Source of the DNA: an uncultured Litoreibacter sp.
GTDB lineage: Bacteria; Pseudomonadota; Alphaproteobacteria; Rhodobacterales; Rhodobacteraceae
DNA: 64,000 nucleotides
Direction: 5' to 3'
NCBI RefSeq assembly: GCF_947501785.1
Contig: NZ_CANMXB010000001.1
Location: 310,001-374,000, forward strand
Part shown: piece by piece, positions 4,233 through 31,591 of the stretch
Position numbering within the stretch: the stretch's first letter is position 1
Layout: the number at the start of each line of letters is the position of its first letter
Notes under the pieces: model-generated
Told to the model about the DNA's origin: nothing
The model's input: only the letters and a program-made list of their open reading frames with translations
Database searches by the model: none
Program-made: the position numbers and the translations under genes

Positions 4233-4278
4233 CAAATCCTCGAAGAGGATTTGAAGTCAGACTTTCGGGGAAAGTCTG
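4233..4278. repeat. Double-hairpin element, copy A
   Basis: Two perfect 9-bp hairpins stand 4 bp apart: arms CAAATCCTC/GAGGATTTG with loop GAA (4233-4253), and CAGACTTTC/GAAAGTCTG with loop GGG (4258-4278). The element sits between the convergent ends of yciB and folE2. A second copy lies at 31546-31591 with the same arm lengths and spacing and compensatory base changes. There is no long T-tract, so it is not a textbook intrinsic terminator, but a two-way terminator or mRNA 3'-end stabiliser is the simplest reading. Confidence 0.8.
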
Positions 4279-4302
4279 CTGCCGTCCGTGTGAGCAATCG
4301 TG

Positions 4303-5418
4303 CTACCCCACATGGAACAGGGTGGAAAACAGTTTGGGATCAATGCTTTCCGCGGCGAAGGTCTCCCCTTCGGTCAGTACGGACACGGCGTCATGGGAAT
4401 GCAGCGATTCCTGATGCGACGCGATCACGCGGAAGTCGCCGATGCGGTCGTCAGATTGCAGCTGCTCGCAGAAGGACCGCGCCGCGTCTTCGACAAAGAT
4501 CGGGTTGGCGGCGTTCAATTCCGCAAAGGCCTGCTCGTCCTCGCGCTTCACCATCACCTGCGTTTCCGTGGGCACCGCCGCGCGGCAATGGTCGATCAGA
4601 TCCTCAAACCACAGGCAGTCCTTGTCGCACATGATCTCGACCGAGACGCGCGCCACCGACCGCTGCGAATGCGGCGTGGCCAATTGCCCGCGAAACTGCC
4701 GCGCATGCTCGCTCAATTCCAAAGAGCAGGGGCAGGTGGACGAATAGACATAGTCCAAATGCATGAACTTTTTCCGAACCCCGGCAACATCCACCACTTC
4801 CAAGGCGATGTCGTAATATTGATACCCCTCAAGGCCCGAGCGCAGCGACTGCACCTTCATCGGGAAGGAGAACCGCATCTGAATGCGGGCGTCAAAGCTT
4901 TCAAGGTCGGATTTGTAGGCGTCCAGCGTCTTCTCGATCACCCCGAACGAAAACGTCTCATCCGCCTGCTTGTAGAAGCTGCGCATGATGCGGGACATGT
5001 TGATGCCCTTCTTCTCGGCCTCCAAAGACACGGTGCCGGTGACCGACGTTTCCAGCCGCAACGGGCCCCCATTTTCAGACGTGTCGCGGGTCTGAAACTG
5101 AATGGGCAGGCGGAAATTGGAAATGCCCACATGTTCAATATGCTGCTTGGCCCCGCGGATCAGCGAGGACGGCCCGTTTTGCAAGTCGGGCATGGACGCT
5201 TTATAGGCGTCATCCACCTCAAATTCTTCGGGGTAGGCGCGCGCAAGGGCAGGGTAGTTGGGCAGTTCCTGACCAGGGACCAGACGGCCAACAAGCGGGT
5301 CTAGATCCGCAACTTCAATGTCAGAAGACTTCTCGGCCCACAGGCGGAGAAGTTTCAAGGCTGCTTCTGCTTCTTCCCGTGTGGGCAAGCGGTCAATTTC
5401 CGGCGTGTGGACGTTCAT
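4303..5418 (-). CDS. folE2: GTP cyclohydrolase FolE2 (type IB)
   Basis: FolE2 makes 7,8-dihydroneopterin triphosphate from GTP, the first step of folate synthesis, and can use metals other than zinc. The ATG at 5418 follows a GGGGGGAC ribosome-binding site and gives 371 aa starting MNVHTPEIDRLPTREEAEAA. Family landmarks include VGISNFRLPIQFQ and the conserved cysteine stretch STCPCSLELSEHARQFRG. An upstream in-frame start at 5478 adds non-conserved residues and was not used. An AT-rich 13-bp dyad lies at 5482-5494, either a -10 region or a repressor site. Later folate genes folB and folP are in the same window at 22.6-24.5 kb, but in another operon. Confidence 0.95.
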   Translation of the reverse strand: MNVHTPEIDRLPTREEAEAALKLLRLWAEKSSDIEVADLDPLVGRLVPGQELPNYPALARAYPEEFEVDDAYKASMPDLQNGPSSLIRGAKQHIEHVGISNFRLPIQFQTRDTSENGGPLRLETSVTGTVSLEAEKKGINMSRIMRSFYKQADETFSFGVIEKTLDAYKSDLESFDARIQMRFSFPMKVQSLRSGLEGYQYYDIALEVVDVAGVRKKFMHLDYVYSSTCPCSLELSEHARQFRGQLATPHSQRSVARVSVEIMCDKDCLWFEDLIDHCRAAVPTETQVMVKREDEQAFAELNAANPIFVEDAARSFCEQLQSDDRIGDFRVIASHQESLHSHDAVSVLTEGETFAAESIDPKLFSTLFHVG

Positions 5419-5511
5419 CGAAGTCCCCCCTTTGGTTCGCGCATTTAGAAACATGGGGCCTCGACGCCCGATTTCCAACTCATAAAATATTTATACGACG
5501 TTACCCGCCTG

Positions 5512-6690
5512 TCAGATCATGTCCAAGGCGGCTTTTATGTCGGCCAAAAGGTCATCCGTGTCCTCCAGCCCGATGGACAGCCGCACCAGCCCGTCGGTGA
5601 TCCCCAGCGAGGCCCGTTGCGCGTCGCTCAACCGCTGGTGCGTGGTGGTGGTCGGATGGGTCACCAGCGATTTGCTGTCGCCCAAGTTGTTGGAAATGGT
5701 CACGATTTGCAACGCGTTCAGGAAGCGGAACGCTTCCGCCTTGCCGCCTTTGATGTCCAGCGCGATGACCGTGCCGCCCTGTTCCATCTGCCGTTTGGCG
5801 GCGCCAAATTGCGGGTGTGACGGCAGATGCGGATAGGCGACATTTGCCAGCTTTTCATGGCCTTCCAAAGCCGTGGCAATTTTCAGCGCAGTTTGCGCCT
5901 GTGCGCCGCAGCGCAGATGCACGGTCTCCAGACCTTTCAGCATCACCCAGGCGTTGAACGGCGACAGCGCGCCGCCGGTGTGCTTTAGATAGGGCTCCGC
6001 CACCTTGCGGATGAAGTCCTTGGTGCCGCAGATCACCCCGCCCAGACAGCGGCCTTGCCCGTCAATATGTTTGGTGGCCGAATAGACAACCACATCCGCC
6101 CCGTCGCGCACCGCGTGGCCGAACACCGGCGTGGCAAAGACGTTGTCCACAATGACCAACGCGTCTTTGGCATGCGCAATCTCGGCGACGGCTTTGAGGT
6201 CTATGACCTCCAATGTCGGGTTGGCGACGGTTTCCAAAAACACCGCCCTCGTGTCGTCGCGCACCGCGTCGCGCCACGCGTCCAGGTCGGTGCCGTCCAC
6301 AAATGTCACGTCAACGCCGTAACGCGGCAGGATGTCTTCGAGAATGTACAGACAGGACCCAAACAAGGCGCGCGCGCTCACCACGTGGTCGCCTGCCTTC
6401 AGCATCGAACATAGCGCGCCGTTCACCGCAGCCATGCCGGACGCCGTGGCAAACGCGTCCTCCGTGCCCTCCAATGCCGCAATGCGGTCCTCGAACATGC
6501 GCACGGTCGGGTTGCCGTAACGGGCGTAGATATATTCGTCGTCGCCGGTTTCGATGAAGCGCGCCTCGGCCTGTTCGGCGGTGTCGTAGACAAAGCCTTG
6601 CGTCAGGTAGATCGCTTCCGAGACCTCACCATATTGCGAACGCCTTACGCCAGCGTGAACGGCCTTGGTGCGGGGGGACCAGTCAGTCAT
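5512..6690 (-). CDS. metZ: O-succinylhomoserine sulfhydrylase (MetZ)
   Basis: A PLP enzyme of the Cys/Met metabolism family that condenses O-succinylhomoserine with sulfide to give homocysteine. The 392-aa protein starts MTDWSPRTKAVHAG and has the family pattern YARYGNPTVRMFEDRIAALE, the PLP-facing VDNVFATPVFGHA and the lysine motif YSATKHIDGQGR at about 207. The ribosome-binding site GAAGGA precedes the ATG at 6690. The gene is preceded by a SAM-II riboswitch and a terminator, which fits feedback control by S-adenosylmethionine and supports a methionine role. Separating MetZ from cystathionine gamma-synthase relies on the overall sequence style (TQGFVYDTAEQAEARF) and context. Confidence 0.93.
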   Translation of the reverse strand: MTDWSPRTKAVHAGVRRSQYGEVSEAIYLTQGFVYDTAEQAEARFIETGDDEYIYARYGNPTVRMFEDRIAALEGTEDAFATASGMAAVNGALCSMLKAGDHVVSARALFGSCLYILEDILPRYGVDVTFVDGTDLDAWRDAVRDDTRAVFLETVANPTLEVIDLKAVAEIAHAKDALVIVDNVFATPVFGHAVRDGADVVVYSATKHIDGQGRCLGGVICGTKDFIRKVAEPYLKHTGGALSPFNAWVMLKGLETVHLRCGAQAQTALKIATALEGHEKLANVAYPHLPSHPQFGAAKRQMEQGGTVIALDIKGGKAEAFRFLNALQIVTISNNLGDSKSLVTHPTTTTHQRLSDAQRASLGITDGLVRLSIGLEDTDDLLADIKAALDMI

Positions 6691-6723
6691 AGTTCGTATC
6701 CTTCAATGGGGTCTCAAGCCCCA

Positions 6724-6759
6724 AAACAAAAAGCCTCCACCGGGAAAAGGGGGAGGCTT
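6724..6759 (-). terminator. Intrinsic terminator in the metZ leader
   Basis: On the minus strand the arms AAGCCTCC (6752-6759) and GGAGGCTT (6731-6738) pair and are followed by a T-rich tail, CTTTTTGTTTT. The hairpin lies between the SAM-II aptamer (6781-6834) and the metZ start (6690), the right place for an expression platform that stops transcription when SAM is bound. The switching partner was not modelled. Confidence 0.8.
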
Positions 6760-6780
6760 ATGCGTCTAGCGCGGCGGTCC

Positions 6781-6834
6781 GTCCTCTTTAGCGGCATGTT
6801 TAACGTGGCCCGCAATCCGGTAACAAATCGCCAC
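6781..6834 (-). promoter_or_regulatory. SAM-II riboswitch aptamer upstream of metZ
   Basis: Read on the minus strand: P1 arm GTGGC (6834-6830), a 20-nt loop GATTTGTTACCGGATTGCGG, closing arm GCCAC (6809-6805), then GTTAAACATGCCGCTAAAGAGG. This matches the SAM-II pattern in order and spacing (P1, GAUUU...ACCG...UUGC loop, closing arm, then ..UAAA..GCUAAA..). SAM-II is the alphaproteobacterial S-adenosylmethionine aptamer found ahead of methionine genes. It sits about 90 nt upstream of metZ with a terminator between them. Confidence 0.88.
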
Positions 6835-6907
6835 AAAAGGGGGAATACGCCTCTCGCCCAGCTTGGTCAAGATGGTCTGAGCACCGTTCGCAGGAAATCC
6901 CGAACCG

Positions 6908-7495
6908 CTACCGTGCGCGCTTGTAGAGGCTCATGAGGACGCCGTTTGGGGTGGGCTCGGCCCTCGTCAGCTCAAATTGGGCGGGCACGGTGCCGCCGCT
7001 GAACAATTGGCGGCCGGACCCAAGGATGGTGGGGAAGGTCCACAGCCGCAGCTCATCCACCAGATCGTGTTTCAAAAGCAGCTGGATCAGGGCGCAGCTG
7101 CCATGCACCTGCAACAGCTTTCCGTCTTCGGCCTTCAGCTTGGCGATCTCACCTGGAATATCGTCGCCCTGCACCTTGTGGGCGTAGGACCAGCCCAACG
7201 GCTCTTCGCGCGATGTCACCACGTATTTCTGCGAGCCGTTGATGGCCTTTGCCGCAGGGTCCGATTGGTCTTCCTTCGGCCAATGGGCGGAGAACATGTC
7301 AAACGTGTTGCCGCCAAACAGAAAGTCGTAAGGCTCGGCCATGGCGTGGGTTTGAACCTGTGCCATCACCTCGTCCCAATAGGGCTTTGCCCATCCGCCA
7401 AGCGCGAACCCGTCTGACCTGTCCTCCTCCGCAGTGCTAGGGCCTTGCATCACCCCATCAAGGGTGACGAAGGTCAAAATCGCTAATTTTCGCAT
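6908..7495 (-). CDS. Dihydrofolate reductase/RibD-C family protein
   Basis: A 195-aa protein with the RibD C-terminal/DHFR-like fold: MRKLAILTFVTLDGVMQGP at the N-terminus, FGGNTFDMF in the middle, and LQVHGSCALIQLLLKHDLVDELRLWTFP, the usual NADPH-binding and dimer segments. These stand-alone proteins are predicted reductases and are rarely characterised; this one should not be taken as the folate DHFR. The ATG at 7495 follows AAGGACAG; the frame extends to 7570 without a better start. It lies just beyond a strong terminator that closes the ArsR/AHSA1/YciI operon, so it is either separately expressed or reached by readthrough. Confidence 0.85.
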   Translation of the reverse strand: MRKLAILTFVTLDGVMQGPSTAEEDRSDGFALGGWAKPYWDEVMAQVQTHAMAEPYDFLFGGNTFDMFSAHWPKEDQSDPAAKAINGSQKYVVTSREEPLGWSYAHKVQGDDIPGEIAKLKAEDGKLLQVHGSCALIQLLLKHDLVDELRLWTFPTILGSGRQLFSGGTVPAQFELTRAEPTPNGVLMSLYKRAR

Positions 7496-7529
7496 GTTTA
7501 ACTGTCCTTGGACGAGGCCTGAATAGATC

Positions 7530-7567
7530 AAAACAAAAAAAGGGCCGGGGCGGCGGTTGCGCCCCGG
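7530..7567 (-). terminator. Intrinsic terminator after the YciI gene
   Basis: On the minus strand CCGGGGCG (7567-7560) pairs perfectly with CGCCCCGG (7552-7545) around a 7-nt loop, followed by CCC and a T-run, TTTTTTTGTTTT. This is a textbook rho-independent terminator. It ends the ArsR-AHSA1-YciI transcript about 35 bp before the reductase start. Confidence 0.88.
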
Positions 7568-7583
7568 CAATGGGTAGCGCGCG

Positions 7584-7904
7584 CTACATCTCGATGTGGT
7601 GCACCTCGGCCACCTCGACCGAGCCGTTGCCGTGTTTGACCATCGGGCAGCCTTTGGCCAATTCGGTGGCGGCGTCGATGCTGTCGGCCGAAATCACCGA
7701 GTAGCCCGAAAGCGGGTTCGCGCCGCCATTGTCGGCCACGCCGTCTTTTGACACGGTTTTCGACATGCCCACCGGGTTGCCGGGGTCGACGATGTTGGGG
7801 CCAAGTTCGCCGTACCATGCGCCCCATTCGGCCATCATCTTGGCCTGTTCTTCCTCGCCTTCGGGGGTGTGGCCGCCGTGAAAGGCGAAAACAAAATTGG
7901 GCAT
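7584..7904 (-). CDS. YciI-like (YCII/DGPF) domain protein
   Basis: A 106-aa single-domain protein with the ferredoxin-like YCII fold. Visible landmarks are the N-terminal FVFAFHGG, the central GYSVISADSIDAATELAKGCP and the C-terminal VEVAEVHHIEM. The ribosome-binding site GGAGGA precedes the ATG. It is 28 bp after the AHSA1 gene and is the last member of an ArsR-led operon. YCII proteins next to AHSA1 and ArsR genes are common; the substrate is unknown and no catalytic role is claimed. Confidence 0.88.
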   Translation of the reverse strand: MPNFVFAFHGGHTPEGEEEQAKMMAEWGAWYGELGPNIVDPGNPVGMSKTVSKDGVADNGGANPLSGYSVISADSIDAATELAKGCPMVKHGNGSVEVAEVHHIEM

Positions 7905-7932
7905 ATAAAATCCTCCAAGTTGCGGGCGGCGC

Positions 7933-8373
7933 TCAGGCCAGCCCTTTTTCCAGTTTGTCGTAAATGGACAGCCAGCCTTTTGTGTGACCCGCGCGGGCGG
8001 TGTCGGTGGTCAGTCCGTAATGGCTCAGGATCATGTTGGCCCTGTCGTCGCCTGCCTCAGAAATTTCGATTGTCACGCGGGTCTCGGTGCCGCGCGGCCC
8101 GCCCGGGCCGCCGTCATGCCAGGCCCAGGTGAAGGCGATGAAGCGCGGCGGGTCGACTTCCGTGACCTCGCCCGACACCATCTTGCGGGTGCCATCCGGC
8201 AGCTCCATCACCGAATGCCACGGGCCTGGGCGCGAGAAATTCAGGTCATGTTCGGGGATGATCATCCCGTCATGACCCCACCAGCGCACCATGTTTTGCG
8301 GCTGGCTGATCATTTCAAACACCCGGGTGGCGGAGGCGGGCATCACCCGCTGCAACGTGACGGCGTCGGTCAT
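7933..8373 (-). CDS. SRPBCC/AHSA1-domain protein
   Basis: A 146-aa START-like domain protein of the AHSA1 (activator of Hsp90 ATPase homologue) family. Typical segments are the N-terminal VMPASATRVFEMISQPQNMVRWWG, the strand region GEVTEVDPPRFIAFTW and the C-terminal helix GWLSIYDKLEKGLA. These small helix-grip proteins bind hydrophobic ligands. The ATG overlaps the ArsR stop by 4 bp, so the two are translationally coupled. Bacterial AHSA1 genes controlled by ArsR repressors are a recurrent pair; the ligand is not known. Confidence 0.9.
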   Translation of the reverse strand: MTDAVTLQRVMPASATRVFEMISQPQNMVRWWGHDGMIIPEHDLNFSRPGPWHSVMELPDGTRKMVSGEVTEVDPPRFIAFTWAWHDGGPGGPRGTETRVTIEISEAGDDRANMILSHYGLTTDTARAGHTKGWLSIYDKLEKGLA

Positions 8374-8690
8374 ATCTTGTCCTCCAGTAGCGCTTGTTCA
8401 AGCCGGTCCATGCTGGCTTCCCAAAATGCGCGGTGGTTCATGGTCCAATCCGACACTTCGCGGATTGCTTCGGGGCGCACGGAATACAGCCGCTGCTGGC
8501 CGTTGATGCGGCGCGTCACCAGCCCGGCCTTGTGCAGCACCGACAGGTGCCGGGAAATGGCGGGGCCGGATATGTCAAACATGTCGCTGATCGCGCCTGC
8601 GGGCGTTTCGCCGTCTTTCATCAGCCGTTCGATGATCTCGAACCGGTAGGGGTCGCTCAGCGCGGCAAAGAGGGGCGGTAACATGCTCAT
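8370..8690 (-). CDS. ArsR-family transcriptional regulator
   Basis: A 106-aa winged-helix repressor. It opens MSMLPPLFAALSDPYRFEIIERL and carries the recognition helix region SGPAISRHLSVLHKAGLV, followed by the wing RRINGQQRLYSV. No CxCxxC-type metal site is visible, so it is more likely a non-metal sensor, as is usual for ArsR genes paired with AHSA1. It heads an operon with the AHSA1 and YciI genes. A 24-bp palindrome (8697-8720) begins 6 bp upstream of its start and suggests autorepression. A second ATG at 8684 is possible. Confidence 0.92.
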   Translation of the reverse strand: MSMLPPLFAALSDPYRFEIIERLMKDGETPAGAISDMFDISGPAISRHLSVLHKAGLVTRRINGQQRLYSVRPEAIREVSDWTMNHRAFWEASMDRLEQALLEDKI

Positions 8691-8696
8691 GCCACT

Positions 8697-8720
8697 TTAT
8701 TTAGCACATTTGTTAAATAA
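8697..8720. promoter_or_regulatory. Probable ArsR operator
   Basis: TTATTTA and its exact reverse complement TAAATAA flank a 10-bp centre (GCACATTTGT), giving a 24-bp AT-rich dyad in GC-rich surroundings. It lies directly upstream of the arsR-type start codon, covering the place where the ribosome-binding site and probably the promoter should be. Size and position fit a winged-helix dimer site. Confidence 0.65.
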
Positions 8721-8752
8721 CGAAACCCTAAAATAAAGTTTTCTTCAATTTG

Positions 8753-9274
8753 CTAGAAAGGCAGGACGTATCCGGCCGCCATCAAGGTGCGGAATTCGGT
8801 GTAGGATAGGATCGCGTCCACGTAGTCGGGGGTGAATATCTGCGAAAACAGCTTTGGTTGCAGGTGAATGAGGTTGTGCATGCTGGCCACCATCACCGTG
8901 ACGCCCATGGTCTGCGCGCTGATCCATTCCGCGCCTTTCATGCGGAACGCCTGTTTGAACATGAAGCCGATGGCAAGCGCCATGGCGCCGTCGGCGGCGA
9001 AGGCCAGCATGATGTCGGTGTCAGGATCGGCCGTCCCCAGTAGGTGAATGCGGGCGAAGCGGCTGAAGAAAACCGCCAGAATGCCAAGCAGGAAGGCCCC
9101 AACAATGCTGAGCGGGTAGAGTGCGTTTCCCAGCAGGCCGCCGGTCAGTTTGACGTCCTTCACCTCGCGGCGTTCGGGGACAATCAGCCCGTCGGCGCTG
9201 TGCACCTCACCGTTGCTGATCCGCGCCAGCCGCGCCTGAAAGTCGTTTGACGCTACATAATCCGATTCACTCAT
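8753..9274 (-). CDS. Membrane protein of unknown function
   Basis: A 173-aa protein, start ATG at 9274 after GTGAGGGCAG (an upstream frame start at 9307 is weaker). Residues 1-50 are hydrophilic (MSESDYVASNDFQARLARIS and on). Then come about three to four hydrophobic segments: LYPLSIVGAFLLGILAVFF, MLAFAADGAMALAIGFMF, and TMGVTVMVASMHNLIHL. I do not recognise a family. It is divergent from trkH with about 150 bp between them. The minus-strand neighbour downstream is the ArsR operon, but a 60-bp gap and the ArsR operator separate them. Confidence 0.7.
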   Translation of the reverse strand: MSESDYVASNDFQARLARISNGEVHSADGLIVPERREVKDVKLTGGLLGNALYPLSIVGAFLLGILAVFFSRFARIHLLGTADPDTDIMLAFAADGAMALAIGFMFKQAFRMKGAEWISAQTMGVTVMVASMHNLIHLQPKLFSQIFTPDYVDAILSYTEFRTLMAAGYVLPF

Positions 9275-9422
9275 ACTGCCCTCACTTTGTGTCAATTTGG
9301 CAAGCATCGCCCCCCGACGGGGCGTTTTTGCGGCGGAAATGCGATTTTCGGGGGGAAATTAATCTGTCCTGAAGGGGCGGCTGGCGTTGACAGCAAAGCC
9401 CGACCGCGCCAACCCTTGCCCC

Positions 9423-10871
9423 ATGTTTGACCTGCGCCCGGTGGGCTATGTGATCGGCCTCTTGGTGGCCTGCCTTGGCGTCTCGATGCTGGTGCCAATG
9501 GTGGTGGATATGGCCGCCGCCAACGGGCATTGGCCCGCGTTTGCGCAGGCGGCGATCATCACCACGGTGACGGGGGCATTGCTGGCCATTTCCACGTCAA
9601 ACGGCATGGGGGCGGGGCTGACCATTCAGCAGACCTTCCTTTTGACCACCGGCGTCTGGCTGGCGCTGCCCCTATTTGGGGCGCTGCCCTTCGTGATGGG
9701 CGCGACCGATGCCCGCTTCATCGACGCGTTTTTCGAGGCGATGTCGGGCATGACCACCACCGGGTCAACGGTGTTTACCGGCCTTGCCAACCTGCCCGAG
9801 GGGCTGAAGCTGTGGCGCGGGTTGATGCAATGGTTTGGCGGCATCGGGATCATCATCGTGGCCATGGTGTTTTTGCCGGAACTCCGGGTCGGGGGCATGC
9901 AAATCTTCCGGTCCGAGGGCTTTGACACATTCGGGAAAATTCTCCCCCGCGCGGGGGAGATCGCGCGCAACATCTCCGTTATCTATCTGGGGCTGACCGT
10001 GGCCTGCATGTTGGCCTATCTCGCGGCGGGCATGGTGGTGCTGGATGCGGTCACCCATGCGATGACCACGATTGCCACCGGCGGGTTTGCCAATTCGGAC
10101 GCGTCATTCGGGGCCTATGGGGCCAATGCCGAATATGTGGGCGCGGTGTTCATGATGCTCGCAGCGCTGCCGTTCGTGCGTTACGTGCAGCTGCTGGCGG
10201 GCACCGCCAAGCCGCTGTTTCGCGACAGCCAGATCCAGACCTTCTTCGCAATCGCGCTGGTGTTGGTGGTGATGCTGGCGCTGTGGCAAATCGCAACCGG
10301 CTACGCCGAGGGGGAGCGGGCCTGGCGCAAAGCCATGTTCAACGCCGTCTCCATCCTGACGGGCACCGGCTATGCCTCCGCCAATTACGAGGTTTGGGGC
10401 TCTTTCGCCGTGGCGTTGTTCTTCCTGATGGGGCTGATCGGCGGCTGTGCGGGGTCGACGTCATGTTCCATCAAAGTGTTCCGGTTCCAGCTGCTCTTTT
10501 CCTCGATCAAGGCGCAGATCAGGCGCATCCACACGCCCCACGGCATCTTCAACCCGCGGTATCAGGGCCGCGCGGTGCCTGACGACGTCATCTCATCGGT
10601 GATGACCTTTTTCGTGCTCTTTGTGGTGTCGCTGGGGGTGCTGGCGATCTTGCTGGGCATGACCGGCCTTGATTTCATCACCTCCGTGTCCGGCGCCGCC
10701 ACGTCGCTGGCCAATATCGGCCCCGGGTTGGGCGACATCATTGGCCCCGCCGGCAATTTTTCGACGCTGAACGACACGGCCAAATGGCTGCTATGCGCGG
10801 GCATGTTGATCGGGCGGCTGGAATTGCTCGCCGTCTACGTGCTGTTCACCGCCAATTTCTGGCGGCCATGA
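9423..10871 (+). CDS. trkH: Potassium uptake protein TrkH
   Basis: The channel-like membrane subunit of the Trk/Ktr K+ uptake system. The 482-aa protein has the four expected P-loop filters: SGMTTTGSTVF, TTIATGGFANSDAS, SILTGTGYASANYE and AATSLANIGPG. An upstream TTG at 9387 opens the same frame, but the ATG at 9423 (MFDLRPVGYVIGLLV) starts right at the first membrane helix as in other alphaproteobacterial TrkH proteins; the ribosome-binding site is weak. The regulatory partner TrkA is not in the window, so the gene acts with a subunit encoded elsewhere. Confidence 0.93.
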   Translation: MFDLRPVGYVIGLLVACLGVSMLVPMVVDMAAANGHWPAFAQAAIITTVTGALLAISTSNGMGAGLTIQQTFLLTTGVWLALPLFGALPFVMGATDARFIDAFFEAMSGMTTTGSTVFTGLANLPEGLKLWRGLMQWFGGIGIIIVAMVFLPELRVGGMQIFRSEGFDTFGKILPRAGEIARNISVIYLGLTVACMLAYLAAGMVVLDAVTHAMTTIATGGFANSDASFGAYGANAEYVGAVFMMLAALPFVRYVQLLAGTAKPLFRDSQIQTFFAIALVLVVMLALWQIATGYAEGERAWRKAMFNAVSILTGTGYASANYEVWGSFAVALFFLMGLIGGCAGSTSCSIKVFRFQLLFSSIKAQIRRIHTPHGIFNPRYQGRAVPDDVISSVMTFFVLFVVSLGVLAILLGMTGLDFITSVSGAATSLANIGPGLGDIIGPAGNFSTLNDTAKWLLCAGMLIGRLELLAVYVLFTANFWRP

Positions 10872-11170
10872 CCGGGCTTTTCGCCCACACAAGCGCGAAT
10901 GAGCACCGCTCTTTGCGACACCTCCGCGTCCCCGCTATCATGCACCAAAGGCAACCCATCGTTGGGCCATGTGCCAATCGGGGGAGGGTGACACCGACCG
11001 GGATCCGCAAAGCCATCTGAGCGGGGTCTCGTGATCCAAAGCAATCACGAAGGCATGGAAAGCGCGCCCTGTTTGCAGGCGGCCCGTCGAAACCGCTTGA
11101 ATTGCGGCCCCGCTCCGTTCTTGATCGACGCAACACCGCGAACACACCCGACAGCAAAGAGATCGCCCGC
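10872..11170 (+). other. Intergenic stretch between trkH and the TPP enzyme
   Basis: About 300 bp without a supportable gene. A small hairpin CGTGAT/ATCACG sits at 11030-11049. The in-frame extension of the downstream gene back to 11102 has no better ribosome-binding site than the chosen start. I see no clear promoter or terminator. Confidence 0.5.
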
Positions 11171-12817: not shown

Positions 12818-12870
12818 CGCTCCCAACGTCAGCTATAGCGGACAAGCCGCCATTTGATCGACGCGCAGGC

Positions 12871-13050
12871 AGGCCCGGATTCAAGCCGTAGGCGCCGGGC
12901 CCATCGCTGACCCGCCCCACGGGGAAGCGATTTGGCAAACCGCGCCAAACGATGGAACGTCTCGCTACCATGGCGGGGATAAAGTGCCCGGACATGGATG
13001 TTGCATCGCATCCCCTCGGGTCAGCGACGGTCCCGGCTTATCTCGGGCCT
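12871..13050. repeat. Imperfect inverted repeat between convergent genes
   Basis: The left arm (12871-12931) contains AGGCCCGGATTCAAGCCG, then TCGCTGACCCG, then GGGGAAGCGAT. The right arm (13005-13050), read in reverse complement, contains AGGCCCGAGATAAGCCG, TCGCTGACCCG and AGGGGATGCGAT in the same order. The arms are separated by about 73 bp, which include a small TTTGGC/GCCAAA hairpin. The element fills the 261-bp space between two convergent genes. It looks like two diverged copies of one repeat facing each other, or a large transcript 3' structure. Confidence 0.6.
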
Positions 13051-13078
13051 GGACGCAAACCAGCGGTCCGGCGCGCCC

Positions 13079-16460: not shown

Positions 16461-16461
16461 T

Positions 16462-18995: not shown

Positions 18996-19020
18996 GCACC
19001 GCAGTATAAGGACGTGTGTG

Positions 19021-22481: not shown

Positions 22482-22577
22482 CGTCGCTTTTGGCAGCTTT
22501 CAGACCGGCTTTCTCGGCGACATAGGGCGCCGAGAGCGCTACAGATGCCGCACAGACACTGAGCGAGGCCAAGGCAC

Positions 22578-23495: not shown

Positions 23496-23499
23496 CGCC

Positions 23500-24519
23500 A
23501 TGACGACCTATTTCCGCCCGCTGGCCCAGACCGATCATCACCGCCCAGACGGCGCGTTGCCGCTGGCAGGCAACCCGCGCGTGTGGTTCACCCATGTCGA
23601 GCAGCTCAAGCGCGGCAAACCGCCAGAGTTGATAGGCCTGCGCGATGTGCCAAGCGACGTTCTGGTCCGCCTCAGCGCCCCGCGCGCGGATATTGCGGGT
23701 CTGAACATGGCCGCGCCCAAGCTGATGGGGGTGCTCAACACAACGCCCGACAGCTTTTCCGATGGCGGGCGCTTCACTACGACGGAGGCCGCGGTAGTCC
23801 ATGCCCAACGCATGGTCACTGAGGGGGCCGACATACTTGATATCGGAGGCGAGTCCACACGCCCCGGCGCGGCCTTCGTGCCGGTAGACGAGGAAATCGC
23901 CCGCACAGCACCAGTCATCGCCGCGCTGAAAACGGCGCAGGTGACGACGCCCGTCTCCATCGACACCCGCAAGGCCGCGGTTGCCCATGCGGCGGTGCAG
24001 GCGGGGGCGGGGCTGCTCAATGATGTCTCGGCGCTCAGCTTTGACGCGCAAATGGCTGACACCGCGGCAAAAACCGGCGCGCCGATTTGCCTGATGCATG
24101 CGCAGGGCGATCCGAAAACGATGCAGGATGACCCCAGCTACGACAACGTGCTGCTCGATGTGTATGACTACCTCGCCGCGCGCGTGGCGGCGGCGGAACA
24201 GGCGGGCATTGACCGCTCCAAGATTATCGTCGATCCGGGCATCGGCTTTGGCAAAACCGCCGCGCATAATCTGGCGCTGATCCAGGGCCTCAGCCTGTTT
24301 CACGGCATTGGCTGCCCGATCCTGCTGGGCGTGTCGCGCAAACGCTTCATTGGCACCATCGCGGATGAGCCGCAGGCTGACAAACGTGCATCAGGGTCGA
24401 TCGCAATTGCGCTGCATGGGCTTATGCAGGGTGTTCAGATCATCCGGGCACATGATATAGAGGAGCACGCGCAGGCATTCGCCCTTTGGCACGCGGTCAA
24501 TAATAACAAGCAGGACTAA
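23500..24519 (+). CDS. folP: Dihydropteroate synthase
   Basis: A 339-aa TIM-barrel enzyme joining hydroxymethyl-dihydropterin pyrophosphate with p-aminobenzoate; the sulfonamide target. Signatures are [42 protein letters not shown] and [11 protein letters not shown]. The start at 23500 lies 4 bp after the folB stop. Longer in-frame starts would run back inside folB. About 75 residues precede the barrel, longer than in E. coli FolP (282 aa). Confidence 0.96.
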
Positions 24520-24523
24520 GCAC

Positions 24524-25864
24524 ATGGCACGCAAGTTTTTTGGCACAGACGGGGTGCGCGGTCGCGCCAACACCTTCCCAATGACCGCCGAATTGGCGCT
24601 GAAACTGGGCGCGGCGGCGGGCCGCTACTTCCGCCAGGACGGCAACGAGCACCGTGTTGTCATCGGCAAGGACACCCGGCTATCAGGCTACATGCTGGAG
24701 AACGCGCTGACGGCGGGGCTGACCTCGACGGGGATGAATGTGTTCTTGCTGGGGCCAATGCCCACGCCGGCCATCGGTCTGCTGACCAAGTCGATGCGCG
24801 CTGATCTGGGCGTGATGATCTCCGCCAGCCACAACCCGCATTACGACAACGGCATCAAATTCTTCGGCCCCGACGGGTTCAAGCTGTCCGACGCGGCTGA
24901 GCACGAGATCGAGGCGCTGCTGGATGGTGACATCCTGCCCGCGCAGCCGCAAAACATCGGCCGCGCCAAGCGGATCGACGATGCCCGCGGCCGCTATGTG
25001 GAACGCGCCAAGGCCACTTTCCCCAGCGGGCTGCGGCTCGACGGGCTGAAAGTGGTCATCGACTGCGCCAACGGGGCCGCCTACAAGGCCGCGCCCGAAG
25101 TGCTGTGGGAATTGGGCGCAGAGGTGATCCCGGTCGGTGTCTCGCCCAACGGGTTCAACATCAACGAAGGCTGCGGCTCGACCAATACGTCACTGGCTGC
25201 CGAAACCGTGGTGGCGCATGGCGCGGATGTGGGCATTTGCCTCGACGGCGATGCAGACCGCGTGATGGTGCTGGACGAGACGGGGCAGGTGGCGGATGGC
25301 GACCAGCTGATGGCCCTGCTGGCGACCCGGTGGCACGAGGCTGGCCTTTTGAAAGGCGGCGCTTTGGTGGCCACGGTCATGTCCAATCTCGGGCTGGAGC
25401 GTCACATGCAGGCCCAGGGCCTGCGACTGGAACGCACCAATGTGGGCGACCGCTACGTGGTCGCCGCGATGCGTGAGAAGGGCTACAATCTGGGTGGTGA
25501 GCAATCCGGCCATATCGTGATGACCGACCATTCCACCACTGGCGACGGGCTGATGGCGGGCCTGCAATTCCTGGCCGCAATGGTGCAAACGGGGCAGGCG
25601 GCTTCGACCCTTGTGCGGCAGTTCGAAACCGTGCCGCAAAAGCTGGAAAATGTGCGCTTCGGCGCGGGCAAGCAGCCGTTGAACGAGGCGTCAGTGCAGG
25701 CCGCAATCGCGCAGGCGGAGGCCGATTTGCAAAGCAATGGCCGGCTGCTGATCCGCAAATCCGGGACCGAGCCGTTGATCCGCGTCATGGCCGAATGCGA
25801 AGATGAGGGGCATCTGAATGCCGTCGTCGCCTCGGTCGTGCAGGCGGTCGAAGCGGCGGTTTAG
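24524..25864 (+). CDS. glmM: Phosphoglucosamine mutase
   Basis: GlmM converts glucosamine-6-phosphate to glucosamine-1-phosphate for UDP-GlcNAc, peptidoglycan and LPS synthesis. The 446-aa protein starts [16 protein letters not shown] and has the phosphoserine loop [15 protein letters not shown] (Ser about 102), the Mg-binding LDGDADRV and the sugar loop GGEQSGHI. It starts 4 bp after folP, the same folP-glmM order as in many proteobacteria. Its stop overlaps the convergent EamA gene by 4 bp. Confidence 0.97.
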
Positions 25865-26781
25865 CGGGCAAACATTGCCCTCAATGCGCGCGATTGGCTG
25901 ATCGCAATGCCCGACAGGATCAACGCCAAGGCGATGAACAGTTGCGGCGGCAGGTCCTCGCCCAGCAACGCGACCCCGAAGATGACGGACCACACAGGCA
26001 CCTGGTAGCTGGTCAGTGACATGAACACGCTGCCCGCCGTCGTGATCACCCGCACGCGGATCACGGCAGCGGCTGCTGTGGGCAGTAAGGCCGCCAACAG
26101 GAGCGCGAGGCCGGGGCCGGCAGGAAATGCGGCGGGCAGGCCTTCTTTCACCAATGCGATCGGCACCAATATCAGGGACGCGACCAGCAAGGACCCGGTG
26201 GCGAAGGCCAGCGGCGGCATCTTCGGCGCGCGGCGGGTGATGATCGATCCGCAAGCGTAGCACGCGGCGGCCCCCATGCAGGCTATGCGGCCCCAGGTCT
26301 CTAAAGGCGCACCGGAAGGGTTCAACGCCTCCGGCCCCAACAAGATGGCCAACCCGATGAACCCCATGATCATCCCGATCACGCGGCGCGGCCCTATGCC
26401 TTCCTCTTTGGAGAATATCGCGGCCAGCGGCAGCACCAATAGCGGCACCACACCCATTGCCACGCCCGCAAAGGCGGACGGCACGTGCTGCTGGCCCCAA
26501 CTGAGCAATGCGAAGGGCAGGGCCACGGCGCCCGCGCCAATAATGGCGGAGAAAACGCAGGCCCGCGCGGATGGCAGGCTGCGCAGCCCTTGCCCCATAG
26601 CGGAGCCAACGGCCCATAAGATCAGCCCGCCCACCAGCGTCCGCCCGGCGGCAACGGTCCATGGCCCAAACCCGTCCAGCGCCAGACGCACCAGCATAAA
26701 GGCCGCGCCCCAGATGACGCCGAGGCTGATGATCAATATCCAGTTGGCCAGGCCGGGGTTTTCGGGGGAAGGGGTGCTCAT
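25861..26781 (-). CDS. EamA/DMT-family transporter (first of a tandem pair)
   Basis: A 306-aa ten-helix transporter: [22 protein letters not shown] at the start, [21 protein letters not shown] mid-way, and [21 protein letters not shown] in the second repeat. The neighbouring gene at 26853 is a clear paralogue ([40 protein letters not shown]), so the pair arose by duplication. Both are on the minus strand 71 bp apart. The substrate is unknown. Confidence 0.87.
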
Positions 26782-26852
26782 GTCACTGGCTTATCCGCTC
26801 TTGGTCGGCGCGGCGAGGGGGAACACGCATGCTTCGGTCGGCACCGTATCGT

Positions 26853-27767
26853 TCATGCGGACGGGTAACGGCCAAGGCGCTTCTGGGCGGCCTGGGTCAG
26901 CGCCAGCCCCCCAAGGATCAGCCCGAGAGCCAAGAGGAAACTGGCGGGCAAGGCCTCAGACATCAGGGCAACGCCGAAGAGCACCGACCAGACCGGCACC
27001 TGGTAGTTGACAAGGCTCATGAAGCTGGGCCCCGCGGACTGGATCACGCGGACCAGCAAGATCGTGGCCAATGCGGTCGGCAAGAGCGCCAGATAAAGCA
27101 GCGCGGCGATCGCATTGGCGGGCATGGCGCCGGGTAGGCCTTCAAACATCAAGGCAAGCGGCACCATGATGAGCGCGCCGATAACCAGCCCGCCGGTGGA
27201 GAAGGCGATAGGATGCGCGGGCGGGGCAAGCCGGGTGATGATCGACCCGATGGCGTAACAAAACGCGGCGCCGATGCAGGCCAGCTTGGGCAATGTGTCC
27301 CCGCCAGCCTCAAAGATCGACAGTCCACCGATGAGAATGAAAACGCCAACGAAACCAATGGCAAAGCCTGCGCACTTAATCCAACTCATGCGCTCACCCG
27401 GCACAAGAAAATGTGCCAATGGCAAGACCAGCAGCGGCACCGCAGCCATGGTCACACCCGCAAAGGCGGAGGGCACATATTGGATCGCCAACCCCAGCAG
27501 CGTGAAGGGCACGGCGTTGGAAAAGACGCCCATGCCAATGATGCACAACCAAAGCTTGCGGTCGGATCGAGGCGGCAGCCGGTGTCCCATCGCGCGGGCC
27601 ACGGCGAACAGAACCAAGGCACCGATGGCCAGCCTGATGGCTGACACGCTCAGCGGGCCGGCCCCCTGCAGCGCCACGGCAGTGGACATGAAGGACGCGC
27701 CCCAAATCAGGCCAAGAAGGCCAAGCGTGAGCCAGTTAATGAGACCGGGAGACTTGGAAGACGTCAT
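26853..27767 (-). CDS. EamA/DMT-family transporter (second of a tandem pair)
   Basis: A 304-aa ten-helix DMT protein. The ATG at 27767 (MTSSKSPGLINWLTLGLLG) fits the first helix and has TAGG upstream; the frame extends to 27848 but would cross the ilvC terminator. It is a paralogue of the next gene downstream and probably shares its transcript. The order ilvC, terminator, then two DMT genes suggests an independent unit, though readthrough from ilvC is possible. Confidence 0.87.
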   Translation of the reverse strand: MTSSKSPGLINWLTLGLLGLIWGASFMSTAVALQGAGPLSVSAIRLAIGALVLFAVARAMGHRLPPRSDRKLWLCIIGMGVFSNAVPFTLLGLAIQYVPSAFAGVTMAAVPLLVLPLAHFLVPGERMSWIKCAGFAIGFVGVFILIGGLSIFEAGGDTLPKLACIGAAFCYAIGSIITRLAPPAHPIAFSTGGLVIGALIMVPLALMFEGLPGAMPANAIAALLYLALLPTALATILLVRVIQSAGPSFMSLVNYQVPVWSVLFGVALMSEALPASFLLALGLILGGLALTQAAQKRLGRYPSA

Positions 27768-27780
27768 AAGCCGTGACCTA

Positions 27781-27811
27781 AATGAAAAAGGCATCGCAAG
27801 CGATGCCTTTT
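27781..27811 (-). terminator. ilvC terminator
   Basis: AAAAGGCATCGC (27786-27797) and its perfect 12-bp complement GCGATGCCTTTT (27800-27811) surround two bases; on the minus strand a T-rich tail TTTTTCATTT follows. It lies 38 bp after the ilvC stop. The A-tract on the other side would also make it active on the plus strand. Confidence 0.88.
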
Positions 27812-27848
27812 GTTGTTTTTGTCTACGCGCAGTCGCGCGGCGTGGCAC

Positions 27849-28955
<1,107 letters not shown>

Positions 28956-28980
28956 CTACAAAAAATCGACAGTGTTATTC

Positions 28981-29006
28981 GCAAAAATTCCGTGATATGC
29001 AAAAAT
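28981..29006. promoter_or_regulatory. Direct repeat GCAAAAAT ahead of the Lrp pair
   Basis: GCAAAAAT occurs at 28981-28988 and 28999-29006, 18 bp apart, ending 1 bp before the lrp start codon. Another A-run (CTACAAAAAATCGAC) lies further upstream. AT-rich repeats next to an Lrp-type gene fit an autoregulatory site also able to affect ilvC, but no motif for this regulator is known to me. Confidence 0.35.
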
Positions 29007-29007
29007 C

Positions 29008-29463
29008 ATGTTAGACGATACCGATCGACGCCTTCTGCGGCAGCTTCAGGCCGACCCGCTGGCCCCCATATCCGAGCTGGCGGAACGCTGTGCCATGCAG
29101 CCCGCAACCGCAACCCGCAGGCTGGATAAATTGACCCGCCAAGGGGTGCTGAAAGGCCAGCACGCCACCATCGACTGGGCCGCCTTGGGGTATGCGGTTG
29201 AGGTCTCGCTGCGCTTCACTTTGGACAAGACCCAATCAAATGCCTTTGACGACTTCCAAGCCGCCGCCCGCCAAATCCCCGAAGTCATCGCCATCCAGAC
29301 CTTCCTGGGTGTCGTCGATGTGCGTCTCTCTGTCGTGGCGCGCGACATGGCGCATTACCAGACGCTCTACCGCGACCACATCCTGACGCTGCCCCATATC
29401 GCGGAACTTGAGGCGCTGATGCATGTCGCCACCATCAAATCCTCCGAGACGCTGCCGATATGA
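29008..29463 (+). CDS. Lrp/AsnC-family regulator 1
   Basis: A 151-aa regulator with an N-terminal helix-turn-helix (LDDTDRRLLRQLQADPLAPISELAERC, then ATATRRLDKLTRQGVLKG) and a C-terminal RAM effector domain (AIQTFLGVVDVRLSVVARDM). The start codon comes 1 bp after an A-rich direct repeat. Its stop overlaps the next lrp gene by 4 bp. The relatedness of the two suggests a duplication and possibly a hetero-oligomer. It is divergent from ilvC. Confidence 0.9.
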   Translation: MLDDTDRRLLRQLQADPLAPISELAERCAMQPATATRRLDKLTRQGVLKGQHATIDWAALGYAVEVSLRFTLDKTQSNAFDDFQAAARQIPEVIAIQTFLGVVDVRLSVVARDMAHYQTLYRDHILTLPHIAELEALMHVATIKSSETLPI

Positions 29464-29918
29464 CCGATCTCGACACTACCGATTTCGCGATCCTCAAATC
29501 GCTGGCCCGGGATGCGACCCAAAGCGCGGGGGCGGTGGGCAAAGCCCTCGGCCTCAGCCAACCTGCCACGTGGCGGCGCATCCGCAAGCTGCAAGAGGAT
29601 GGCATCCTGACGGGCAGGCGGGTGGACCTCGACGCCGAAAAGCTGGGTTTCGGCGTGACCGTCTTTCTGGGCGTCAAGCTGGCCACCAAGGGCCGCGTGT
29701 CGCTGGAGGATTTTGAGCGCGCCGTCACCGCCATCCCCGAGGTGCAAACCGTGCAGCACGTGCTTGGGCTTTACGACTACCGCCTGCGCGTGGTTGCCCG
29801 GGACCTATCCGATTTCGAACGTGTGCTCAGGCGCCGCGTCATGACATTGCCGGGCGTCGGTAATGTGGAAGCCAACGTGCTGCTCAGCGAAGAACGTCTG
29901 GCGGGGCCGCTGGGATGA
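29460..29918 (+). CDS. Lrp/AsnC-family regulator 2
   Basis: A 152-aa paralogue of the preceding regulator: LDTTDFAILKSLARDATQSAG, HTH region SQPATWRRIRKLQEDGILTG, and RAM domain VQHVLGLYDYRLRVVARDL. It overlaps its neighbours on both sides by 4 bp (ATGA at each junction), so three genes form a tightly coupled operon. The effector is unknown. Confidence 0.9.
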   Translation: MTDLDTTDFAILKSLARDATQSAGAVGKALGLSQPATWRRIRKLQEDGILTGRRVDLDAEKLGFGVTVFLGVKLATKGRVSLEDFERAVTAIPEVQTVQHVLGLYDYRLRVVARDLSDFERVLRRRVMTLPGVGNVEANVLLSEERLAGPLG

Positions 29919-30283
29919 ACGACACGCAATCAGCGCGGGAACGGGTGTGGATCAACATGTCCGAGCTGTTTCTCGACACCGATATCAGCGATGAGTTGGA
30001 CTACATCGCAAGCGCTCTGGCGGCGTCGCCTTTCGATGAGGCGGAGCTGGACCGGATCTTGCTTGAAGAGGTCTACCCCGTCTGCATCCCAAACCTGCAT
30101 TCCATTGCGGGCATCTGGTCAGGCTTTGATGAGGCGGAGCTGGTCGCGGCGATCACCCGCCGCAATGCGCGCAAATTCCCGCTGTTGTGGCTCTGGATGC
30201 CGTTTCGTAGGCGGCATATGCGCAGGATGCTGCCGGAATGGGAAGAGATCAGGGACAAGATCGCGGCTATTCGGGCGGGGTAG
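29915..30283 (+). CDS. Small DUF7079-like protein
   Basis: A 122-aa soluble protein rich in acidic residues. The layout RVWINMSELFLDTDISDELDYIA, EVYPVCIPNLHSIAGIWSGF, then LLWLWMPFRRRHMRRML resembles a family I recall as DUF7079; this name is from memory. No catalytic motif is visible. It is the third gene of the Lrp operon, overlapping by 4 bp. Its function may be linked to those regulators or be incidental. Confidence 0.7.
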   Translation: MNDTQSARERVWINMSELFLDTDISDELDYIASALAASPFDEAELDRILLEEVYPVCIPNLHSIAGIWSGFDEAELVAAITRRNARKFPLLWLWMPFRRRHMRRMLPEWEEIRDKIAAIRAG

Positions 30284-30415
30284 TCCACCAAAGGAAACGT
30301 CTAGCGATCATCGGCCACGCGACGGGCGGCGCGACCGCCACAGTATACCAAGATAGACTTTGCCTTCCCCGTGCCGGCCCCATATCAAACACCCAAAGAC
30401 ATTGGAGGACTTCAA

Positions 30416-31540
30416 ATGGCATTGCTCGACACTGTGGACCCAACCGGCTTGGAAGAATTCAGCGTGGTCTTCACCGACCGCTCGCTCAACTCTATGTCAA
30501 AGGCGTTTCAGGGCGTCATGACCGACATCTCCAGCATGCTCAAAGACGTCTACAACGCGCAATCCGTGGCCCTGGTGCCGGGCGGCGGCACCTTCGGGAT
30601 GGAGGCCGTGGCGCGTCAGTTCGCCCGCGGCAAGAAGGCGCTGGTCGTGCGCAACGGCTGGTTCTCCTACCGCTGGTCGCAAATCTTTGAATCGGGTGGC
30701 CTGACCTCCGAGGCGGTCGTGATGAAAGCCCGCCAGACCGGCAACGACACCCGTTCGCCCTTCCACCCCGCGCCGATCGAGGACGTGGTGGCCCGCATCG
30801 CCAAAGAAAAACCCGACGTGGTCTTCGCCCCGCATGTGGAAACATCCGCAGGGGTGATCCTGCCCGATGACTACATCACGCAAATGGCTGACGCGGCCCA
30901 CAAGGTCGGCGCGTTGATGGTGCTCGATTGCATCGCGTCGGGCTGCGCTTGGGTGGACATGAAGGCCACGGGTGTGGATGTGTTGATCTCCGCCCCGCAA
31001 AAGGGGTGGTCGGCCACGCCCTGCGCCGGGATCGTGTGCATGTCCGCGCTTGCCCGTGAGCGGATCAACGAGACGACCTCGGACAGCTTCGCGGTCGACC
31101 TGAAAAAGTGGCTCGACATCATGGAGGTCTACGAGGGCGGGGGCCACGCGTATCACGCGACCATGCCCACGGACGGGCTGAAAGCCTTCCGCGACACAAT
31201 GATCGAGACGCGCGACTACGGGTTCGAACGCCTGCGCGAAGCGCAGTGGACGCTGGGCAATGGCGTGCGGGACTACATGAAGTCCAAGGGCATCGTGTCT
31301 GTCGCCGCCGACGGGTTTGGCGCGCCGGGCGTGGTGGTCAGCTACACGGATGATCCCGCGATCCAGAACGGGTCGAAATTCGCCGGTGAGGGGATGCAGA
31401 TCGCCGCCGGTGTGCCGCTGCAATGTGATGAGCCGGATGACTACAGGACCTTCCGCATCGGGCTCTTCGGGGTCGACAAGCTTTATGACGTGGATGGCAC
31501 TTTGGCGCGGTTCAAAGCCACGGCGGACAAGGTTCTTTGA
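30416..31540 (+). CDS. Class V PLP-dependent aminotransferase (alanine/serine-glyoxylate type)
   Basis: A 374-aa fold-type I enzyme, ATG at 30416 after GGAGGA. Motifs are ALVPGGGTFGMEAVARQF, VVFAPHVETSAGVILPDDY, MVLDCIASGCAWVDMKATG and the PLP-lysine stretch ISAPQKGWSATPCAG (Lys about 195). The C-terminal part binds substrate carboxylate (FRIGLFGVDKLYDVDGTL). The family includes alanine-, serine- and aspartate-glyoxylate aminotransferases; the specific donor cannot be read off. A 133-bp leader separates it from the DUF7079 gene. The gene ends at double-hairpin copy B. Confidence 0.85.
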   Translation: MALLDTVDPTGLEEFSVVFTDRSLNSMSKAFQGVMTDISSMLKDVYNAQSVALVPGGGTFGMEAVARQFARGKKALVVRNGWFSYRWSQIFESGGLTSEAVVMKARQTGNDTRSPFHPAPIEDVVARIAKEKPDVVFAPHVETSAGVILPDDYITQMADAAHKVGALMVLDCIASGCAWVDMKATGVDVLISAPQKGWSATPCAGIVCMSALARERINETTSDSFAVDLKKWLDIMEVYEGGGHAYHATMPTDGLKAFRDTMIETRDYGFERLREAQWTLGNGVRDYMKSKGIVSVAADGFGAPGVVVSYTDDPAIQNGSKFAGEGMQIAAGVPLQCDEPDDYRTFRIGLFGVDKLYDVDGTLARFKATADKVL

Positions 31541-31545
31541 GGCGC

Positions 31546-31591
31546 CAAATTCTCATCGAGAATTTGAATTCAAACTTTCCTCGAAAGTTTG
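31546..31591. repeat. Double-hairpin element, copy B
   Basis: Two perfect 9-bp hairpins separated by 4 bp: CAAATTCTC/GAGAATTTG with loop ATC (31546-31566), and CAAACTTTC/GAAAGTTTG with loop CTC (31571-31591). It starts 5 bp after the aminotransferase stop and ends 7 bp before the convergent ubiH-type stop. Geometry is identical to copy A at 4233-4278; each stem differs by one base pair, changed on both arms. Confidence 0.8.

Follow-up and report, generated by a model that had tools for sequence, protein, structure and literature searches.

Tandem hairpins behind stop codons: a dispersed family of small structured elements in Rhodobacteraceae

Introduction

What is a 46-bp element of two adjacent hairpins doing between the ends of convergent genes? 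The question is raised by a stretch of 64,000 nucleotides from an uncultured Litoreibacter sp. (Rhodobacteraceae; contig NZ_CANMXB010000001.1, positions 310,001 to 374,000), hereafter the window, meaning that whole stretch at its full length, in which such a double hairpin occurs at 4233-4278 and again at 31546-31591. A first-pass annotation made from the sequence had pointed out the two copies. Our analysis shows them to be two members of a tandem-hairpin family that is dispersed in Rhodobacteraceae and occurs at convergent gene ends as well as inside operons; selection on the pairing is well supported by sequence comparison.

The two copies and their family

Both copies were confirmed, each built of two perfect 9-bp stems with 3-nt loops and a 4-nt linker. 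The first (4233-4278) reads CAAATCCTC-GAA-GAGGATTTG / AAGT / CAGACTTTC-GGG-GAAAGTCTG and the second (31546-31591) reads CAAATTCTC-ATC-GAGAATTTG / AATT / CAAACTTTC-CTC-GAAAGTTTG. Between the copies each stem carries a single compensatory pair change (C-G/T-A in stem 1, G-C/A-T in stem 2), as the first-pass annotation had described. Its further statements, that the copies lack T-tracts and that both lie between convergent genes (yciB and folE2; aminotransferase and ubiH), also hold: no T-tract follows on either strand, and Pfam matches all four genes, the one called ubiH as an FAD-binding monooxygenase. The stems are AT-rich although the window is 61% GC. The parts of the copies and the flanking genes are as follows.

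3609..4217, + strand: yciB/ispA-like septation protein (PF04279); stop codon 15 nt before copy 1
4233..4253, no strand: copy 1, hairpin 1; 9-bp stem CAAATCCTC, loop GAA
4254..4257, no strand: copy 1, linker; 4 nt, AAGT
4258..4278, no strand: copy 1, hairpin 2; 9-bp stem CAGACTTTC, loop GGG
4303..5421, - strand: folE2 (PF02649); stop codon 24 nt from copy 1; longest open reading frame (ORF) to 5478, start tentative
30371..31540, + strand: class-V aminotransferase (PF00266); stop codon 5 nt before copy 2
31546..31566, no strand: copy 2, hairpin 1; 9-bp stem CAAATTCTC, loop ATC
31567..31570, no strand: copy 2, linker; 4 nt, AATT
31571..31591, no strand: copy 2, hairpin 2; 9-bp stem CAAACTTTC, loop CTC
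31599..32786, - strand: FAD-binding monooxygenase, UbiH-like (PF01494); stop codon 7 nt from copy 2

With up to three mismatches allowed, each hairpin pattern was found only at these two places in the window, against 0.06 and 0.04 expected, and none of 100 shuffled windows reached two matches. In the 3.89-Mb genome of the same organism, a covariance model of the two window copies identified at least 24 distinct places at an expectation value (E) of about 2e-5 or better. A model built on a 26-row alignment recovers the same 24 places at E 2e-9 or better, together with about eight further, weaker candidate places at E up to 1e-3; the copy count is a lower bound, 150 of about 1000 first-look candidates having been scored. 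The geometry is almost invariant (9-bp stem, 3-nt loop, 4-nt linker, 25-bp period), and at five of the 24 places a third hairpin follows on the same 25-bp period. One congener (genome G006, loci L047 and L032) has gene ends at which at least four hairpins are clustered.

For a wider view, a degenerate pattern with five positions per stem left free, and the outer and apical positions fixed, was scanned against one genome per species (84,980 species); the at least 120 stretches retrieved are a sample. Among the matches listed, all but two titles name Rhodobacteraceae, Paracoccaceae or their genera, including Litoreibacter, Octadecabacter, Pseudooctadecabacter, Yoonia, Loktanella, Anianabacter, Sulfitobacter and Rhodobacter sp., and the remaining two name only Alphaproteobacteria. 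Within the genus, matches at E up to 1e-3 occur in 11 of 16 genomes, the other five being without one, and none was seen in nine genomes of other families in the same scan. In the family sample, at least 34 of 296 genomes match at E up to 1e-5, a minimum given that 19 candidates were scored per genome. The element is thus patchily present among Rhodobacteraceae, many of them marine. Carriage by phages was rejected on the basis of 0 matches in viral contigs, a search limited to one exact pattern. With 24 places in its own genome and more in Rhodobacteraceae, the family of small structured elements that the first-pass annotation had offered as one option is borne out, the element recurring at other gene ends with covariation far beyond two copies. 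The refuting outcomes that the annotation had named thus did not occur.

Pairing and covariation

The 26-row alignment, to which the triple elements (L008, L016 and L018) contribute two rows each and from which L024 and one register of L023 were omitted for their different length, holds standard pairs in 468 of 468 pair cells, with only one G-U. Twelve of the 18 pairs have changed on both sides. Covariation scores 0.490, compared with 0.151 in shuffles and no more than 0.148 with partners slid. Copies found by covariance models lean towards pairing, however, because the models were built from paired copies, and the degenerate pattern provides a less biased test. Here 240 of 248 hairpins (124 distinct elements, among the matches listed) pair perfectly at the free positions, compared with 10.2 expected from shuffles. 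In the same matches only 22 of the 96 stem words allowed by the pattern are in use, most often CAGACTTTC (59) and CAAATCCTC (49), and the sequence is therefore constrained beyond pairing. The commonest words have three or four G/C of nine, and the stem energies of the ten commonest range from -4.7 to -9.8 kcal/mol. A closing outer stem formed by the flanks is not general (mean 2.96 pairs vs. 2.93 permuted, 206 elements), with outer stems of five or more in 13.1% vs. 8.7% permuted.

Mismatched cells bear on whether this pairing matters in RNA or in DNA. A search that allowed three mismatches yielded 224 elements. Read in the sense direction, the 112 tandem ones gave 1989 Watson-Crick, 5 G-U, 6 A-C and 16 other cells of 2016, and the convergent ones gave 1590 Watson-Crick, 9 G-U, 12 A-C and 9 other of 1620. 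Since G-U is no commoner than A-C, in numbers that are small, sense-RNA pairing alone is insufficient. Three explanations would fit: both strands count even within operons, pairing at the DNA level or copying from arm to arm plays a part, or the stem words are recognized as sequence.

It can therefore be asked whether the hairpins matter as DNA, extruded or single-stranded hairpins being copied or mobilized and arm-to-arm template switching keeping the arms identical. The nearly exclusive Watson-Crick pairing and the missing sense G-U excess would fit such a scenario, as would the joint variation of the half-sites within one copy, which a dimeric DNA-binding protein cannot explain; a dyad-binding protein was rejected as a candidate on this ground. 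Nevertheless, the conserved stem words at orthologous junctions require sequence selection too, and the candidate for a mobilizing enzyme, the Y1 (HUH) transposase of the REP-associated tyrosine transposase (RAYT) type (PF01797; REP, repetitive extragenic palindromic), was detected in none of 17 genomes of the genus, the organism's own included, two of the 17 being less than 90% complete (a control search was positive in five of 14 named genomes). We consider a DNA-level explanation rather unlikely, and changes between copies, described next, speak on both sides of it.

Gain and change at orthologous junctions

At the aminotransferase/ubiH junction, the double hairpin is present in none of 15 readable congeners, the sixteenth being cut by a contig end. 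Within 100 nt, 14 of the 15 lack any perfect hairpin of at least 7 bp; the remaining one has a single 8-bp hairpin, located in the neighboring coding region. Behind folE2 no such hairpin lies within 150 nt in any of 14 readable congeners, most of which lack yciB as a neighbor. At the end of rpoB, where the organism's own genome carries an element (L009, G000:C1:1989067-1989120), a small GC-rich hairpin starting at the stop codon is present in 12 of 15 other congeners, and the double AT-rich element is found in the organism's own genome only. The flanks of L009 (locus positions 1465-1560, GGGGGC...GCGCCCC) resemble the arms of the congeners' small hairpin at the same place, as if the element had landed in the loop of that hairpin, a route that would not be general for the family. 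L009 is identical to another own-genome copy (L006, C1:128000) at 18 of 18 free positions and differs from it by one base pair that has changed on both sides, C-G against G-C. Because the congener junctions are empty and these two copies are nearly identical, copies have been gained, at least one of them recently by copying. The filled and empty ubiH junctions, and one more site, have flanks too diverged to define a target-site duplication of the kind that marks MITE insertions.

Some elements are older and form ortholog groups within the genus and across genera. In eight such groups (26 rows; L191 was dropped because it duplicates L054), differences affect 95 of 1476 stem sites (6%), 141 of 246 loop sites (57%) and 107 of 164 linker sites (65%), counted over 41 pairwise comparisons that are not independent events. 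On the same pairwise basis, 47 pair changes run from one Watson-Crick pair to another and one ends in a non-pair. Together with the covariation and the degenerate-pattern scan, the contrast between ortholog stems and loops supports the view of the first-pass annotation that stems which stay paired while loops vary freely are under selection for structure.

The 47-to-1 ratio and the single doubly changed pair of L006 and L009 would also fit arm-to-arm copying in DNA, but intermediates exist. Among the 15 closest element pairs (up to three differences at 18 free positions), four pairs hold five one-sided changes vs. one double change, the one-sided changes all lying at terminal or loop-closing pairs; these elements had been chosen with a limit of one mismatch, so that decayed copies escape notice. 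The same junctions bear on whether the element is a purely selfish palindromic repeat, with stop proximity only marking tolerated insertion sites. Its patchy presence (11 of 16 genus genomes, at least 34 of 296 family genomes) and the recent gain at two junctions are compatible with this, but stem divergence among orthologs is only a tenth of that in loops and linkers, unlike in a dead insertion, and we regard pure selfishness as very improbable.

Placement behind stop codons

Gene contexts were taken from a codon-bias gene caller, not from annotation. In the organism's own genome 14 of 24 places are convergent and 10 are called tandem, one of which (L021) actually lies within a 507-aa ORF. 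The L021 double hairpin (1505-1550; C1:3323754-3323807) falls within the Pfam match of that ORF to the deoxyribodipyrimidine photolyase-related family. Among the matches listed from the degenerate scan, 38 are convergent, 61 tandem, five divergent, 19 too near the locus end and one unclassed. Sixteen of the 24 own-genome elements lie at most 10 nt from a stop codon, the remaining eight being farther away, inside an ORF or ambiguous. In the 120 element-bearing loci listed, elements lie a median of 7.5 nt from the stop codon (n=128), compared with 23.5 nt (n=32) for canonical hairpin-plus-T-tract terminators in the same loci. In the window and 60 of the 120 loci, tested with mononucleotide shuffles, structure 10-50 nt behind stops is 6.4 kcal/mol beyond shuffles at ends with elements, vs. 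2.9 (tandem) and 3.8 (convergent) kcal/mol at ends without them.

Such closeness to stop codons invites an explanation at the level of translation, in which a ribosome reaching the stop would run into the hairpin and be delayed in termination or recycling, so that expression of the upstream gene is lowered or tuned, or the next cistron is insulated from ribosomes that run on. The elements lie 0-10 nt behind stop codons, nearer than canonical terminators, and Escherichia coli REPs less than 16 nt from the stop are reported to down-regulate translation and stall ribosomes (PMC12306157). However, short convergent spacers force stop proximity anyway, eight of the 24 own-genome elements are more than 10 nt from the stop, inside an ORF or ambiguous, and the missing G-U excess counts against any pure sense-RNA mechanism. 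A primarily translational role is in our view possible, albeit doubtful.

Copies inside operons

Many short tandem junctions that carry the element are classic operon joints, one member of each pair type being named by NCBIfam. The rpoB-rpoC junction is occupied in five genomes besides the organism's own.

L158, with homologous pairs in L169, L177, L191 and L192: rpoB-rpoC (NCBIfam, one member)
L103: nuoJ-nuoK (NCBIfam, one member)
L172: hslV-hslU (NCBIfam, one member)
L171: pyrC-pyrE (NCBIfam, one member)
L140, also L144 and L198: cysS-citramalate synthase (NCBIfam, one member)
L142 and six homologous loci: 98-aa unnamed protein before a sulfite/nitrite reductase family protein

The organism's own genome has two such cases. 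L009 lies behind rpoB (NCBIfam) and is followed by a gene whose start reads as RpoC, which we take it to be on recognition by eye, and L014 separates two ABC-transporter permease genes, the second of which starts 29 nt further on. Operon-junction copies often stand 17-40 bp before the next start codon. Co-transcription of rpoB-rpoC and similar pairs is established in other bacteria and presumed here, and efficient termination between rpoB and rpoC would come at a very high cost.

These copies speak against the two-way rho-assisted terminators that the first-pass annotation had suggested; as a general function this is not supported by the tandem places, the copy inside an ORF and the operon junctions, the organism's own rpoB-rpoC included, and was rejected. 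Efficient termination is unlikely because elements sit inside operons. It can still be argued that the family consists of bidirectional, possibly rho-assisted terminators, the nearest published form being the clustered-hairpin intrinsic terminator that lacks a U-tract. As described in PMC8355165, these terminators share with the family a position of neighboring hairpins no more than about 20 nt from the stop, and they need no U-tract, so that clustered hairpins near stops would fit, and their criterion (hairpins less than 15 bases apart, near the stop) matches the 4-nt linkers and the median of 7.5 nt among the matches listed. Fourteen of the 24 own-genome places are convergent, and an element and a canonical terminator occur together in only three of 99 element-bearing gene pairs among the matches listed. 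On the other side, copies lie in rpoB-rpoC, nuoJ-nuoK, hslV-hslU and pyrC-pyrE, not only at the ends of transcription units, and some adjoin a canonical terminator hairpin with a T-tract (L029, L043 and L011). The stems are AT-rich, neither the GC-rich stem nor the U-tract of intrinsic terminators was found in the elements, and one copy is inside an ORF. The clustered-hairpin terminators were moreover defined in inter-operon regions, whereas the present family occurs inside operons too and shows a sequence family with covariation. Overall, termination as the function is quite unlikely, more so than a role in translation or in DNA.

The rpoB-rpoC gap was also followed beyond the element. A search of 100 family genomes gave matches in 91, from which 70 rpoB 3' ends were taken; in 61 of the 70, rpoC starts at most 250 bp behind rpoB. 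A perfect hairpin of at least 6 bp opens within 15 nt of the rpoB stop in 41 of the 61 gaps, and a double hairpin in nine. These hairpins are spread over many genera, and their sequences are diverse, including small GC hairpins, AT-rich doubles and long palindromes. It looks, from these sequences, as if the place rather than the sequence were kept, a hairpin being useful whatever its sequence. In other genera, the gaps L315 (G081), L325 (G123), L327 (G044) and L338 (G096) hold a different long palindrome, GGTGCGTG...CACGCACC, with an inner inverted repeat, which is apparently another repeat family.

A candidate role at the mRNA 3' end

Considering placement, covariation and operon copies together, we tentatively favor, at somewhat less than an even chance, a REP-like stop-proximal element that protects or defines the mRNA 3' end of the upstream cistron; a role as a hairpin barrier in mRNA is what we infer. 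Existing copies would seed new ones in the first few nucleotides after a stop codon, and selection would then hold the stems intact while loops and linkers drift. Rho or an endonuclease might then end or cut the message further downstream, and 3'-to-5' exonucleases would halt at the double hairpin, leaving a defined and protected end for the upstream cistron. At a convergent pair the same palindromic DNA could serve both messages, and inside an operon transcription would pass through, with the upstream segment gaining the longer lifetime. At -4.7 to -9.8 kcal/mol, the ten commonest stems are in principle strong enough to block an exonuclease. The processing signals listed as an option in the first-pass annotation come close to this proposal.

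The model for such a mechanism is the puf operon of Rhodobacter capsulatus, whose intercistronic hairpins were reportedly described by Klug et al. in 1987. These hairpins likewise lie directly behind the upstream cistron, in a member of the same bacterial family, and reportedly confer segment-specific mRNA stability. They are a single locus, whereas the family described here is dispersed, and the two are likened by position, not by sequence.

Several observations weigh against protection of the 3' end. A barrier of maximal strength would hardly be built from AT-rich stems, and selection on sense RNA should tolerate G-U, which is not in excess over A-C in the sense reading. Divergent settings, without an upstream stop codon, account for five of 105 classified contexts (among the matches listed) and nine of 224 elements, and one own-genome copy (L021) lies inside an ORF. 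Moreover, structure at the rpoB stop has a mean z of -2.11 in the family (30 of 70 loci) vs. -1.30 in other families (13 of 29 loci, of which the 13 usable class-sample loci include one of the same family). The comparison is weak because the rpoB stop was located in only these loci, and too weak to call stop-proximal structure special to Rhodobacteraceae.

Comparison with known repeat families

Among known systems, the REPs and bacterial interspersed mosaic elements (BIMEs) of enterobacteria and pseudomonads, with their GTAG and CGTC superfamilies, are similar in being short palindromes, from imperfect to perfect, dispersed intergenically, often behind stops or between cistrons and often paired. 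CGTC REPs likewise lack a dedicated transposase (PMC3733652), and E. coli REPs are located 1-20 nt from ORF ends (PMC12306157); neither source mentions Rhodobacter or Roseobacter. The present elements differ in having perfect covarying 9-bp stems instead of one consensus, and a strict 25-bp period. No GTAG/CGTC foot is shared in the 26-row alignment, where the stems are bounded by CA...TG and the flanks are variable and G/C-rich. REPs number over 100 per genome according to PMC2817692, compared with which 24 strong and about eight weaker places, a lower bound, are few. The family thus resembles REPs in dispersal and placement but departs from them in three defining traits, with no Y1 transposase, no GTAG/CGTC foot and a low copy number; a RAYT-driven REP was rejected on the absence of Y1 transposase from 17 congeneric genomes.

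No Rfam family matches either window copy at the gathering score, and at E up to 5 the loci L002 and L009 gave a single chance-level match, beside the element and not over it. Full-text searches of an open-access library showed no account of the family, which is weak evidence of absence since subscription journals were largely uncovered.

Other structured features in the window

The window holds three further structured features. A SAM-alpha riboswitch (RF00521, 59.8 bits) lies at 6767-6844 on the minus strand, upstream of the minus-strand gene 5512-6690, which on recognition by eye presumably encodes an O-succinylhomoserine/O-acetylhomoserine sulfhydrylase. The stretch 51996-52103 holds a transfer RNA and, behind it at 52085-52103, CTTTTTGCCTCGCAAAAAG, which forms a perfect 8-bp stem with a 3-nt loop in a style like that of the element. 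At 57663-57714, a tandem hairpin of a different kind consists of an 8-bp and a 10-bp hairpin, both GC-rich and perfect, with 3 nt between them.

Significance

Elements of this kind are easily annotated as terminators, which would be wrong inside operons. What began as a curiosity of two copies has become a family with an experimental handle, as the same module stands at convergent ends and inside rpoB-rpoC, where its effect on the rpoB and rpoC messages is directly measurable. It may be speculated, though we think it improbable, that the family is a repeat class that spreads without a known transposase, its modules being copied behind stops, essential operons included, and its arms evolving in concert via DNA-hairpin template switching. 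If this were true, compensatory changes would arise in a single event and covariation would be partly a mutational signature rather than proof of RNA selection, which would affect the interpretation of covariation in small hairpins of bacteria at large. Dated copies in operons, where one strand is transcribed, and at convergent ends, where both are, offer a natural test of the wider issue of whether strict Watson-Crick covariation of bacterial hairpins invariably points to selection on RNA or may also stem from arm-to-arm copying in DNA.

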